31,295 bases of DNA from Allomyces arbusculus (taxonomy: Eukaryota > Blastocladiomycota > Blastocladiomycetes > Blastocladiales > Blastocladiaceae). A program made the position numbers and the translations under genes. Below are positions 19,075 through 25,527 of the stretch, in pieces. The notes beneath the pieces were generated by a model. The model was not told where the DNA came from and did no database searches. It was given only the letters and a program-made list of their open reading frames with translations. How positions within the stretch are numbered: the first letter of the stretch is position 1; every line of letters begins with the position of its first letter. The stretch spans positions 1 through 31,295 of the forward strand of contig JADHYV010000130.1 in the NCBI GenBank assembly GCA_027604705.1. Reading direction: 5' to 3'.

Positions 19075-20594
19075 ATGATTCCCGCATCGACGCTCGCATC
19101 CGTTACGGCTCGCGCAGCAGCTCGCGCCGCGTCCAAGGCACCACGCCACACGTTCCTCGCCGCCGTGGCCGCCCACGCATCGCGCATGCAATTCACTCGC
19201 CACCAATCGACGACCACGTCGCCGGCGCACCTGATCCCGCTCTATGGCCGTCCCGAGGACGTGGTGCTCACGCACGGCAAGGGTGCACTTCTGTGGGACA
19301 GCAAGGGCCGCGAGTACATTGACCTGACGGCGGGTATCGCCGTGTGTTCGCTGGGCCACGCCGACGCGCAAGTTGCCGAAGTGCTCGCCGACCAGGCGAG
19401 CAAGCTCGTGCACGTGTCGAACCTGTTCCGCAATCCGTGGGCTGAACAGCTCGCCGACCAGCTGGTGGAGTCGGCCAAGCGCGACTATCTGCCGGCGAGC
19501 GAGCAGGTGACGTTGGGTGAGGGCAAGGCGCTGTCGAGCGTGTTTTTCTGCAACTCGGGGTACGCTCTTGACAAGGTCAGTTTCGAAGACACTGAGAACG
19601 ATGAGCTCACGTTCCTCATCACAGCACCGAAGCCAACGAAGCAGCCATCAAATTCGCGCGCGCGCATGCGCCCGACCCGAACAAGTACCGCATTCTGACC
19701 TTCTCGAACGCCTTCCACGGCCGGTCCATGGGCGCGCTCTCGGCGACGCCCAACAAAAAGTACCAGGCGCCGTTCGAGCCGCTCGTGCCCGGGTTCCAGT
19801 CGGTCGCGTACAATGACTTGGCGGGCGCGCGTGCCGCGCTCGAACAGCACAAGGGCGAGTTTTGTGCGATCATGCTTGAGCCGCTGCAGGGGGAGGGTGG
19901 GGTGTGGCCCGCGGACGAATCATTTTTGCAAGGATTGCGCGCACTTGCAGACGAGCATGGGTGCGTGCTCATCTTTGACGAGATTCAGTGCGGCCTGTCG
20001 CGGACGGGACGCAAGTGGGCACACCATTGGTCCAAGGTCACGCCGGATATCTTGACGGCGGCCAAGCCGCTTGGGAACGGTACGTCGCTGTCGTCCACTT
20101 GACTCTGCACCGCTCAGATTGTCACTCACAAGCATTGTCCCTCCGTAGGTGTCCCCATCGGCGCCGTCATGGTCAATGCGACCGTCCTGTCGTCGCTCGC
20201 GCCGGCCTCGCACGGCACCACGTTTGGCGGCAACCCGCTCGCTTGCCGAGTCGGGTCGCACGTGCTCGACCGGCTCACGGCACCCTCTCTCCTCGCGCAC
20301 GTGGCCCACATGGAGTCGCTCGTACGCGACCGGCTCGCCGGGATGCAAAAGGCAGCGCCCAAGGCCGTGACGGGGTCGCGCGGGCGTGGGCTGATCTGGG
20401 GGCTCGAGCTGAACAAGAGCATTCCAGACGCGGGCAAGAACGTGGTCGCGGCGGGGCGCAAGAACGGCGTGCTCGTGTGCACAGCCGGCAAGGACGGGAA
20501 CGTGGTGCGCATTGTGCCGCCGCTCACGATCGAGGAGAAAGTGTTGCACAAGGGGTTGGATGCGATTGAGGCTGCTGTCAAGGCGCTGGATTAG
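19075..20594 (+). CDS. ARG8: Acetylornithine aminotransferase, mitochondrial
   Basis: PLP enzyme making N-acetylornithine from N-acetylglutamate semialdehyde and glutamate in mitochondrial arginine synthesis. Three exons (19075-19559, 19625-20079, 20149-20594; introns 65 and 69 nt) give 461 aa. The first 45 residues are rich in Ala, Arg and Ser with no acidic residue, a typical matrix presequence. Family motifs are DLTAGIAVCSLGHADAQV, FFCNSGTEANEAAIKFAR (the PLP phosphate site, rebuilt exactly across intron 1), FHGRSMGALSATP, LIFDEIQCGLSRTG (the Asp that pairs with the PLP ring nitrogen) and TAAKPLGNGVPIGA with the Schiff-base Lys, across intron 2. TTFGGNPLAC follows. A partial copy of its 3' end lies 440 bp downstream. 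Confidence 0.95.
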
Positions 20595-21036
20595 TAAATC
20601 ACGGAGCATTTGCTGGCGCATCTTTTGGCACACATTCCTTGATATTCCTGGTTCGGGATGATGCCGCTCAACCGCGGGTCCAGCATCAATGGTTCAAAAA
20701 TGTCGTCCATCCGGAAGAAATGCCCGTGGATACAGTCAATGTTGACCCGGTACTGTCTCAACAGTTCCCATTTTCAAGTACCAAAGCTCACGGCGTCCTC
20801 ACGACGGCCATTATGCACATCGCCAAAACGACAATATTCCGGAATATACCGGAACATGTCAGTGTGTGCCGGGCCAGTTTATGACGCGAACATATTGAGT
20901 TCAAGGGTCAGAATATTCTTCGCTGTCCCATCGCATACCAGGGATATTCCAGCGCTTTCTCGTCCACCTTGCGCACATTCCAGGAATATTCCCGACGTGC
21001 GATACGCAAGTTACGATCACATTTTGAGCTTGGTTT
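20595..21036. promoter_or_regulatory. Spacer with a cluster of heat-shock-element-like palindromes
   Basis: Within 20832-20993 four groups of GAA/TTC modules occur: AATATTCCGGAATATACCGGAA, split here only for display as TTCcgGAA plus GAA; AGAATATTCT near 20910; GGGATATTCC near 20941; and ATTCCAGGAATATTCC at 20976-20991. Inverted nGAAnnTTCn pairs are the HSF1 site. The spacer is less GC-rich than its flanks and has no convincing gene. Which promoter, if any, it serves is unclear. Confidence 0.4.
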
Positions 21037-21190
21037 GAACGTGGCCGCGGCGGGGCGCAAGAACGGCGTGCTCGTGTGCACGGCGGGCAAGGACGGGAAC
21101 GTGGTGCGCATTGTGCCGCCGCTCACGATTGAGGAGAAGGTGTTGCACAAGGGGTTGGACGCGATTGAGACCGCAGTACATGCGCTTTGA
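21037..21190 (+). pseudogene. Truncated duplicate of the ARG8 3' end
   Basis: About 153 bp match the last part of ARG8 exon 3 (20438-20594) at about nine in ten bases, up to a stop codon at nearly the same place. It would encode NVAAAGRKNGVLVCTAGKDG and the following 30 residues of the family C-terminus. Upstream of the shared GAACGTGG the similarity ends at once, so no PLP site, start codon or promoter is present and it cannot make the enzyme. Roughly two thirds of the differences fall at silent codon positions, as if the copy diverged while still part of a working gene. It is most simply the remnant of a former tandem or allelic ARG8. Confidence 0.85.
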
Positions 21191-21910
21191 CGGGTGAGCT
21201 TGCAGGAACGGCCGCGCATAAATACAACGAGTATTGGTTCTGTTGCTTCAGTGGTCATGGGCCTCATCGCGGGGGGTAGTGAGCGTCAATCACATTCAAT
21301 CCGGGTGCGCGTACAATCAGTTTGAGCTGCACAGCGACCGTAACCATCAACAGCGGCGCGTGCGACACATGCGCAGCAATACAACAAGCCTGGCAGGACG
21401 TTGCACCGATCCTCGGACACAATCTGATGGGCGTTCTCGGAAATTGATCCGATTCAGCGAGGGCCGGCCTAAACAAAAGACCAGCGCGCAATGCAAAGAC
21501 GAGGTGACAAACCCGAAACCACATTCTCATCATCACAATTTGTTCTCACTTCATGCGCACAAACAAGGACGAACAAGTCAAAGGCAAAGAGTTGGAGCAG
21601 AATACACAAGATGCAAAGGATTTGCACAAATGGGACATACATTTTTTTCGTGGTGCAACAACAGCGAAAATTGACAGCCGGCCACGAGAAAAATGAGACA
21701 AATGTTGGTGGGACTGCGCTTGGAACAGATGATGCGATTGTTCGCAATTGGAGCAGACATTGTTTCAAACATGAAAGTGGAACGAGATGCTTGGAACTGG
21801 GCGCTGTACAACAAACGCGCGTACCAGAGCTAGCAAAACATCGTAAGCTTGGATTTGGCCACTGCCATCGTCGAGGCGACGCCCAATATTGATATTGGAT
21901 CGAGCGAACG
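21191..21910. other. Intergenic, no gene seen
   Basis: About 720 bp between the ARG8 remnant and the stop of the GTPase gene. Open frames on both strands lack family likeness. Composition is less GC-rich than the housekeeping genes. It should contain the 3' UTR of the GTPase gene. Confidence 0.5.
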
Positions 21911-23819
21911 TTACGCTGCAGCCAGGGCAACAGGAGCGCCGTCTCCGGACTCATTGATGGCAACAAAGTCGTGCTCCTTGGTGCCATGCCGGCAGCCTGG
22001 TTTGGTGCCACGGACTGCCTTGCATGCGACGCACAAGTCGGCGCACGGCTCTTCACGGTTCGAGTGGCCGCAACCCGAATGCACGGTGCTGCAGCCCGGG
22101 TCCGCCTCGCCGCGCTGGCAGCACTCGTAGACCTTTTCGCACCCGTCTGCCATTTCGCCGAGGCAGCACGATGGCCGGCACCCAATGTGGTCGAAGTCCA
22201 CGTCCATGTTACAGTGCGCGCACAGCTTGGCGCATGGGCTCGCTGCAGCGCCAGCTGAATAGTCGGCTTTGCAGCACGCGTACACCTTGCAGCAGGGCGC
22301 GTCGAGCTTGCCATTGCAGCACGCCATGACACAGGCCAATGCCGGATTGGGAGCCTCCGATTCTGACAGAGACTTGGCATTGCACCTCACGCATTGCTGA
22401 CGGCATCCCTTGGCGTGCTCAGTGACGGATCGCTGATAGTTTTCGGCATAGTCGTCATCGGCCCCAGTCGCCAGCTTGTCGCAGCACGGAAAGATCCACG
22501 TGCAGAGCGTCCCATCCTTGGACTTGCAGCATGCGGGCAGGCATCCGGGCGCGGACAGATCCAACTTGCAATGCGAGCAAATTGACATGCACTTGTCATC
22601 ATCAGCCCCACCACAGCATGACAGTACACACCCTTTGCTGGATGCGTCCTTTCCGCACCCACTGCACATCAGCTTTTGGTCGCCGCCACTCGGTGGGATG
22701 ATAGGGAAAAAGAGCGAGAAACCCGGCTTGATCTCTGTGGTCATGGGAATCAGCTGCTTGTGCATGCGGGAGCTCGACTTGTGCTGGGCAACAACGGAAT
22801 CATGGGCAAGCCCCGTCTTTGGAACATGGCACTTGACAGGCTTACTCAAGTGCACGCGAGAGAGCTGCCTGTGCGCGCGCGCCGTGGTCTGGTGGATTTT
22901 GATCGTGTCCTGTGAGCGATGCCCTGCAACAATCGGGTGATGGACCTTGGGCGCCGACTTGTGGCGCTTGATCAGGTCCTTCGGGTGGGCAAATCCGAGC
23001 TTCCCAAGATGGTGCTTTTCAAAATCAAGGTGGCAGTACACATCGACGAGACGTGGGTCGGTCATGATGCCACATCCAGTGCACTTGAAGTGTTTGCGAA
23101 TCACTTGCACCGGCTTGCGCTCTGTCGACACAATCTTCACGAGCAAATCACGGTACATGTCAGCCGTGAGCCTGCCAAGCTTCAAGCTCGGCGCCATTGG
23201 CTGATCGTCATCGTCGAGGTCTTCCTTGTCAAGAATGTGCGCAAAGTGATACTCGTAGTCGTCCTGTGCTCCACCAACGCACTGGCCCAGCGCTGCCAAA
23301 ACGCCCTGGACGCCCTTGATCCTCTTCATGGACTTGAAGAGCACAACAACGTTCTGCGCCATGGCGTGGCTCGAGTTGTCACCAAGCGAATTGATAAACT
23401 TGGCGGTGTACTGCAAGAACGAAGACGCCCTTGAGTCGAGGCCACAGGTCCAAAGAATTGTGTGGATTTCGTTGATACCATGCTTGTCGAGCGTCTTGAG
23501 CGTTTCCACGCTGATTTGCGCATCCGTGGCCCCGGTCGTGTCACAAATGCCCTGCGTATCGATGAGGCGAATGATGCATGTGTCGAGCTCGACCGGATCG
23601 TAAACATGGGTAACCATCGTGCACGACGTGGCCTCAGGCCAACGACGGCACCTTTGGCCCCAAGATGAGAGCATGTGGTCGACTTGCCCATGCCTGTCTG
23701 GCCCACAAGCATCACATTGTACGTAGGTTTGGTCATGATGGCTTGAATTAGACCCGTCTCTGTAAGCGCGGTAGTGGAGCGTTTGGGGCTGCTCAGGTCA
23801 AAAAGTGCTTTGAATTTCA
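21911..23819 (-). CDS. AIG1-like GTPase with His-heptad and tandem Cys-rich C-terminal repeats (one frame break)
   Basis: About 636 aa if the single frame break is passed. Residues 1-30 lead to the P-loop GQTGMGKST (40-48). The G2-like EATSCTMVTH and G3 LIDTQGICDTTGA follow, then HTILWTCGLDSR and VVVLFKSMKRIKG, as in AIG1/GIMAP-type GTPases. A small C/H cluster comes next, CTGCGIMTDPRLVDVYCHLD. About residues 283-355 carry His at intervals of mostly 7-8. About 384-609 hold four or five repeats of CxxC-x(9-15)-[G/A]C-x3-CC-x(6-9)-C-x4-CC. No signal peptide or membrane helix is seen. The P-loop and switch segments lie in frames offset by one base near 23635, with no good intron between. It could be an assembly error, a recent pseudogene, or recoding. 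The fused architecture is not one I know. Confidence 0.7.
21993..22666 (-). repeat. Cysteine-rich coding repeat array
   Basis: Inside the GTPase gene, units starting CSGCGKD, CSHCKLD, CVRCNAK, CAHCNMD and a final CVACKAV each continue with a GC-x3-CC or AC-x3-CC core; most also have a C-x4-CC end (WIFPCC, VYACC, VYECC). Spacing and Cys positions are conserved while other residues vary, which points to metal binding or disulfide structure kept by selection. Confidence 0.8.
22755..22970 (-). repeat. Histidine repeat of about seven-residue period
   Basis: Between HKSAPKVHH and HKSSSRMHKQ, ten His positions recur at spacings 7, 7, 9, 7, 7, 8, 8, 7 and 7 when HH is counted once (rough units HxSxxxx). 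The residues between are basic and polar. The period would put His on one face of a helix, suiting a metal- or acid-sensitive surface. Confidence 0.7.
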
Positions 23820-24954
23820 TGGCATGATCTGTCGACGGTGTGGCAATAATTGTGTACCTCCAGCACTGAAAATGGGAGGGTGGAACCGTTGAATCAAGTC
23901 GAGTGACGCGCAATCGGGGCGTGGAAAATCGCAACGCTGTGAAGGCTTCAGTTGGCGGGTCCCAAGCACGGGGTGGCGACGCTTTTTATACTTTATGGAC
24001 GTGATATGGATGGCTGTAGCATGTTCCCCCCACGTCAGCTTCAGCCCACATCAGAACTGACGTTGCTTAAGTAAGGCTGAATGCATGTTCATGAACGAAT
24101 ACAAACCCTGACCATGTCGCGCGTTTCGTGCAGCCCGGGGCAGTACCACAATGCTGCACAACGCATCAACGCTTCCACGCGGATGTAAAGAACATAATGA
24201 TCAGGAGAACTTTGCCTCGACTCTCAATACGGCCACCGATGAATGGCGTCCAGATTTTGTGCTGTCTGCGTGAGCAGAGGCGCTGCTAGATCCACGTCCG
24301 CGCGCCATGTCGTCACCCATGACGTGATTGGGCATGAGAACTTTGCGGTCAGTGTGGTGGACGAGCGGACCAGTTTTGGCACAAGACCACGACGTAGAGG
24401 GCATGGCTGTCCGTTTTCCAGAAGCGGTACAGTATCCGGGTCTGTAATGCAGTGGAGCGGCATGGCATATCTCTGTGTCAGGCTTCCGCTTTTCGATGTC
24501 AAAAAATATTGGACGTTACTTTCTCGGTTTTGCATGCAGTCCCAGTGCAGTTTCGCAAAGTGTCTCTAGCGTAGTCTCATTTTGTTTCTGGGCCGCATGC
24601 AGTCGTATTCTTTGTGGCGGCCATGCTGTTGGAGTCAGCATGGGAGAAACATCTCAGCCAACGGTTGCTCATCATGTTGCCCTCATTTTGTGTCTGTCGC
24701 GGCTGTAGTTCCCTTCCTGCGGCATACGCTTGCGTTTCTGAAGAGGTGCGATTGTTGCAGTTGGAAAGCCGTTGATCAGCGCTCTACTGTCACGACGTGG
24801 AGCCATCAAGATGCTGTTTGGCACGCTCACGGTCGTCGATTGATATGATGCCCGGCATCAACGGGCCGGGTCGCACGATGATGCAATTGAAACGGGAATG
24901 CATGTATTATTTCGACTACGGGCAAAAGCGCATGGCGGCCGCCAGCGGTCGGTC
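23820..24954. other. Intergenic, GTPase promoter side and NDUFA6 downstream side
   Basis: About 1.1 kb of moderately GC-poor DNA. The GTPase TATA-like box lies at 23983-23990. Open frames at 24201-24848 on both strands have no family likeness. No repeat, tRNA or conserved motif was recognised. Confidence 0.5.
23983..23990 (-). promoter_or_regulatory. TATA-like box of the GTPase gene
   Basis: TATAAAAA on the minus strand, 164 nt before the start codon. The leader then shows a two-codon ORF, ATGCCATGA, whose stop overlaps the GTPase ATG at 23819. Such an overlap could lower translation of the main frame. Confidence 0.45.
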
Positions 24955-25527
24955 TTACCGGCCCGCGAGGAACTTGTCGAGGAACGCGCCCTTCTTTTGG
25001 TCGCCAAACTCGCGGTTCTCAAAATACCGCATGATGTGCGTCGTCTGCTTCCACAGGTTGAGCGTTTCCTGCAGCTCAAGGTGGCCCTTCCACAGCAGGA
25101 CATCAATTGTGCCGAGGTCCTCGACGTAGCGGTGCTTCTCAAACTCGGCGCGCACGCGTTGGCGGATCGCGTGCGCGGGCATGTCGAGGTAGTAGAGCTG
25201 GACGATGTGGTCGGCCTGTTACAGCATGGAGCAAATCGTAAATCACAGCGGCCCGCGCACGGACAGAAGATGGGTGGGGCGCGGTCTTACGTTCTTGAGC
25301 CACTGGCGGTAGAGCGTCATGGCGCGCTTGCGCGCGTCGTTCTTGTCGGCCGACGCGCGCGAGTAGACGGCGAGCGCCGACCCGTGCGAGGGCGTCTCGT
25401 AACCCGGCTCGGGCATCTCGGGGGCCTCGGCGAGCGCGGCGACGCGGTGCGACCCGGCGGGGACCGAGTGCGCCAGGCGTGCGAGGACGGGGCGCGTCAC
25501 GGCGGGCGAGCGGAGGGCGGCCAGCAT
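24955..25527 (-). CDS. NDUFA6: Complex I LYR-motif accessory subunit NDUFA6/B14 (NB4M)
   Basis: An accessory subunit of mitochondrial NADH:ubiquinone oxidoreductase that binds acyl carrier protein. Two exons (25527-25291, 25215-24955; intron 75 nt, GTAAGA donor) encode 165 aa. The LYR motif is ALTLYRQW-like (KRAMTLYRQWLKN) at about 68-80, right at the exon junction. After it come VQLYYLDMPAHAIRQRVRAEFEKHR and the conserved end HLELQETLNLWKQTTHIMRYF, matching B14. The first 60 residues are Ala/Arg-rich, probably a mitochondrial targeting extension longer than in animals. Presence of complex I separates this organism from Saccharomyces-like yeasts and microsporidia. Confidence 0.9.

Follow-up and report, generated by a model that had tools for sequence, protein, structure and literature searches.

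A putative GTPase with a histidine- and cysteine-rich tail, divided by a frame change, in the genome of Allomyces arbusculus

Introduction

AIG1-type GTPases are patchy in distribution and uncertain in their roles. Metallothioneins and zinc-finger repeats, for their part, have many cysteines per unit and contain CC pairs. An R-finger is named in AIG1/GIMAP proteins in the available part of one source (PMC11238149). In fungi, AIG1-Hint proteins of the Glomeromycotina, in which AIG1 is fused to a Hint module, are described in the accessible portion of a second (PMC8778642), and another known fungal case is an Aig1 gene induced in Rhizophagus, as given in the part of the paper at hand (PMC7490403).

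Here we describe a locus of Allomyces arbusculus in which GTPase motifs are followed by a histidine ladder and a cysteine array. The window, that is, the whole stretch of DNA analysed, is an entire contig of 31,295 bases. A sequence-only reading had taken the locus for an AIG1-like GTPase fused to histidine and cysteine repeats, and we compared it with profiles, shuffled controls, neighbouring genes and several sequence collections.

Results

Gene layout and reading frames

The gene lies on the minus strand of contig C130, in a genome assembled to 25.9 Mb in 197 contigs. Frame A opens with the ATG at 23820 (MKFKALFDL...NVMLVGQTGMGKST) and carries the P-loop, while frame B runs from stop to stop over 628 codons (21911..23797), with an internal ATG at 23674 and its last stop at 21911. 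Contained in frame B are PEATSCTM, LIDTQG, HTILWTCGLDSR, NVVVLFKSMKR, a C/H cluster, a histidine ladder and a cysteine array. The parts were thus found in the order and at the coordinates first read (P-loop, G2-like motif, G3, C/H cluster, His ladder, Cys array), and the fusion of the GTPase to the His and Cys arrays also stands, because these arrays share a single open frame with the G2-G3 part. The gene does not stand as one protein in the assembled sequence, because the P-loop frame differs from the frame of everything else.

None of 200 Markov simulations (31.3 kb each, trained on positions 20001-25000 of the window) matched the 628-codon open frame, the largest simulated frame being 427 codons. 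The real window holds a second long open frame of 530 codons, which is located in a more GC-rich stretch. In 16 of 19 sliding windows, frame B exceeded the other two minus-strand frames in third-position GC. The supposed less GC-rich pocket was borne out roughly, with 53-60% GC per kb at 21-25 kb vs 55-76% for the rest of the window, apart from one kb at 50%. We also observed a direct repeat of 150 nt, with copies 92% identical and 599 nt apart (window 20438-20587 and 21037-21186); here a class-III aminotransferase gene is followed, downstream, by a duplicate of its own 3′ end.

GTPase motifs

All motifs described here lie on the minus strand. The G1 motif or P-loop, GQTGMGKST (23677..23703, frame A), is matched by Pfam P-loop models and agrees with the pattern GxxxxGKS, though its frame differs from that of the rest. 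The G2-like PEATSCTM (23615..23638, frame B) lies within the AIG1 alignment and holds S-x-T-x, and the G3 motif DTQG, in LIDTQG, is found at 23549..23560 in frame B. Set against the Biomphalaria patterns, SCTM agrees with SxTx and DTQG has Gln where DxPG has Pro; these patterns and that for G1 are those given in the available part of PMC7053062. Downstream, the conserved-box-like HTILWTCGLDSR (23429..23464) contains a candidate arginine and falls within the AIG1-aligned stretch, its equivalence to the motif being judged by eye. NVVVLFKSMKR (23321..23353) occupies, again by eye, the place of the G4 strand, with KSMKR at the G4 site. The set of conserved box, G4 and G5 that characterises AIG1 was not found, since the conserved box was placed by eye only and G4 and G5/IAN motifs were not recognisable by eye in frame B. 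A coiled coil beside the GTPase part was likewise not seen by eye.

Profile scores of the GTPase part

We used a read-through query, in which frames A and B are joined with an X at the junction, against Pfam, which listed 8 families. The top family was AIG1 (PF04548; 26.1 bits, E = 6.4e-6, profile positions 2-124 of 212), 0.9 bits under its curated cut-off of 27 bits. MMR_HSR1 (PF01926) scored 22.3 bits over profile positions 1-72 of 113, just above its cut-off of 21.9 bits, and the Septin model reached just 11.2 bits. In six controls that retained the P-loop piece and had the second piece reversed (1) or shuffled (5), AIG1 appeared in 2 of 6 (best 12.3 bits) and MMR_HSR1 also in 2 of 6 (best 16.5 bits). 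Taken alone, the P-loop piece matched AIG1 at E = 0.077 (12.7 bits) amid many P-loop families of Pfam, and the second piece matched no Pfam family; its best match among PDB sequences was an unrelated protein (E = 0.41). NCBIfam gave weak P-loop matches only, all to the first piece. With a GIMAP2/5 profile made from two human GIMAPs, the score of the P-loop piece was reached by 0 of 1000 shuffles, and the second piece scored -1.1 bits, a value that 433 of 1000 shuffles equalled or exceeded.

PF04548 was matched at two other places in the same genome, L001 and L002. The latter is a septin (83.2 bits to PF00735) that scores 24.3 bits to AIG1; with a septin of the same genome so close, about 26 bits to AIG1 says little in favour of membership. 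L001 is another GTPase, with 28.8 bits to AIG1, over the cut-off, yet 36.3 bits to MMR_HSR1. The AIG1-like assignment of the sequence-only reading survives in part: AIG1 is the best-scoring family on the two-frame read-through, but the score is below the cut-off and the pieces fail singly. Judged by profile matches, the GTPase part is best classed as a TRAFAC GTPase with AIG1 as its best match, not as a confirmed AIG1 member.

The frame break between G1 and G2

The change from frame A to frame B (net -1/+2 nt) falls within 23639..23676 on the minus strand, between the P-loop and PEATSCTM, these limits being defined by motifs and not by stops. As assembled, the P-loop is not co-translated with the remainder. 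From the P-loop to DTQG we found nine candidate introns, that is, stop-free GT/GC...AG pairs of suitable length. Four of the nine keep the TSCT of G2 but measure 11-26 nt, and the other five (35-71 nt) delete it, among them GT-AG pairs of 56 and 59 nt with the donors GTTGGC and GTCGTT. Introns placed in three neighbouring genes (UPRT, class-III aminotransferase and acyl-CoA oxidase), five in all, are 65-74 nt long, with the donors GTACGT, GTACGC, GTACGT, GTGCGT and GTATGT and with CAG or TAG as acceptors; for the aminotransferase intron, a second, weaker splice pair fitted as well. An intron across the frame change was rejected, all nine pairs being too short or G2-deleting and unlike the neighbouring introns, with none convincing. 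A programmed -1 frameshift was also rejected, as no in-frame X XXY YYZ slippery heptamer was present at 61 places.

We take the frame break to be a one-base error of the assembly or else a genuine, recent change, and the results are compatible with both. A real one-base change in the GTPase domain, with the remainder undecayed, would make the locus a pseudogene of the same kind. The break does fall within the catalytic domain, a second copy was not found in the genome, and the contig, on a small sample, is without sign of frequent indel errors, because the frame changes at five places in the three neighbouring genes are ordinary introns and no further break was seen in the parts of these genes that were read by eye. 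The 575 codons that are stop-free from PEATSCTM to the end, and the retention of all Cys in the three units of the array, speak against decay, and we consider a pseudogene rather unlikely, if still a reading of some weight. Translation could instead begin at the ATG at 23674, as frame B has this ATG of its own upstream of G2 and then stays open for 587 codons, and the product would be a shorter, P-loop-less pseudo-GTPase with a His/Cys tail. However, the P-loop lies upstream at a plausible distance and the GTPase profile match depends on it, which leaves such a product improbable.

Histidine ladder and cysteine array

The C/H cluster, KHFKCTGC...YCHLDFEKHH (23009..23092, minus strand), and the histidine ladder (22760..23032, minus strand) are both in frame B. 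The ladder has 15 His in a segment of 105 residues, with gaps mainly of 6-9 residues. Twelve gaps fall in that range when adjacent His pairs are excluded, and none of 20000 composition shuffles had as many, the largest count being 11, in keeping with the regular spacing noted from the sequence. Pfam gave no family for the His part at E up to 10.

The cysteine array (21962..22672, minus strand, frame B) contains 39 Cys in 253 residues. It is built of three 9-Cys units, C-x3-C-x2-C-x(8-16)-C-x3-CC-x7-C-x5-CC, with a half unit at either end. A leading half unit, C-x2-C-x8-C-x3-CC (22613..22666), is followed on the same strand by unit 1 (22481..22591; C359-C395 of the protein P0001), unit 2 (22271..22405; C421-C465), unit 3 (22118..22234; C478-C516) and a trailing half unit, C-x3-C-x2-C-x9-C (21992..22045). 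The nine Cys are invariant across the three units, the last six at fixed spacing, and no other column is invariant. CxxxCC, CxxxCxxC and CC-x7-C occur 4 times each, whereas 10000 composition shuffles averaged 0.83-0.85 and reached 4 in 0.8-0.9% of cases; these figures, like those for His, are descriptive because the segment and the motifs were picked after viewing the sequence. At the DNA level, the pattern for C-x3-CC-x7-C-x5-CC has 3 occurrences in the window, all within this gene, and 0 in 100 shuffles. The Cys array, like the His ladder, is non-random.

The invariance of the nine Cys alone is as expected of a metal- or disulphide-held repeat, and zinc would be the favoured ligand of the units, given the cytosol. 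Pfam returned no family for the array at E up to 10, with no Cys-rich or zinc-finger model matching. AlphaFold models of frame B and of one Cys unit had mean pLDDT values of 38.1 and 49.8, respectively, at which metal sites were not readable, and Foldseek with the one-unit model gave a single, meaningless match (E = 5.9). The earlier proposal for the locus was a GTP-switched metal or redox sensor, in which the GTPase would respond to oxidation of the tail or to the metal that it carries. The CC pairs, the CxxxCxxC motifs and the His ladder are indeed ligand-like; however, structural zinc accounts for the same residues and nothing favours sensing, and such a sensor seems to us very doubtful.

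Search for relatives

Among the best-scoring candidates in its own genome, there was no further match to the protein, to the Cys array or to the GTPase part. Homology scans of viral contigs, prokaryote genomes and phages revealed no relative, and PHROGs gave a single match at E = 0.3. The spacing pattern of the Cys unit was present in at least 120 stretches of viral contigs, 65 open frames among them holding the spacing. We inspected the 14 most Cys-dense of these 65. The three multi-match loci, judged by appearance on the open frame only, had the look of Ala-rich repeats read out of frame or of Cys runs of low complexity, and were rejected. In the literature, AIG1 with "cysteine-rich repeat" was found for plants only (by title), and a search for AIG1 and zinc finger in Allomyces found nothing. 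Where AIG1 was searched with Blastocladi, the mention of AIG1 concerned the Glomeromycotina, in the available part of PMC8778642. The view that no described protein has this combination of parts is therefore uncontradicted, to the extent of the own genome and the viral, phage and prokaryote collections.

As a separate observation, the same genome carries microbial rhodopsin genes, L006 and L007 (613 and 611 aa from ATG), and L006 continues into a guanylate cyclase domain: two segments beyond its rhodopsin part, lying in different frames, hit that family at 50.6 and 76.7 bits. Zoosporic fungi, e.g., Blastocladiella, are known to have fusions of rhodopsin with guanylyl cyclase, according to the part of PMC4046227 available.

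Discussion

The interpretation that we tentatively prefer, at slightly short of even chances, is that the locus encodes a TRAFAC-class GTPase that is lineage-specific, closest to AIG1 in its profile match and equipped with a C-terminal metal-binding tail. The GTPase domain would pair with another GTPase via its G face when nucleotide-bound, the His/Cys-rich tail would fold round structural zinc in the cytosol, and the tail might then bind a partner or gather copies, giving a nucleotide-gated scaffold. We infer the cytosolic location because no signal-peptide-like N-terminus was seen by eye; dimerisation, zinc binding and the scaffold role are likewise predicted. A bolder form of this proposal would be a new class of zoosporic-fungal GTPase, in which a G-face dimer gates the His ladder and multi-metal 9-Cys units as a scaffold or sensor, and to this we give little credence.

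Under the preferred reading of a GTPase with a metal-binding tail, the GTP-binding switch domain would be kin to the immunity GTPases of plants and animals. If intact and expressed, the gene would add another fungal AIG1-like gene and broaden the range of modules driven by such switches, with a type of Cys repeat that no Pfam model covers.

Compared to metallothioneins and zinc-finger repeats, the locus also has Cys-rich units with CC pairs, but the array matches no Pfam model. It resembles MMR_HSR1-type GTPases (PF01926) in scoring just over their cut-off, whereas the alignment stops before G4 and the score is below that of AIG1. With AIG1/GIMAP proteins (PF04548) it shares the P-loop GxTGxGKS, S-x-T-x at G2 and DTxG at G3, together with an Arg that lies, by eye, near the place of the conserved box; it differs from them in that G4 and G5/IAN are not recognisable and no coiled coil is apparent by eye, and a His/Cys tail is present instead. 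Like the AIG1-Hint proteins of the Glomeromycotina, as far as these are described in the available part of PMC8778642, the locus would combine AIG1 with a further module within an early-diverging group of fungi, the added module being Hint in those proteins and a His/Cys array here.
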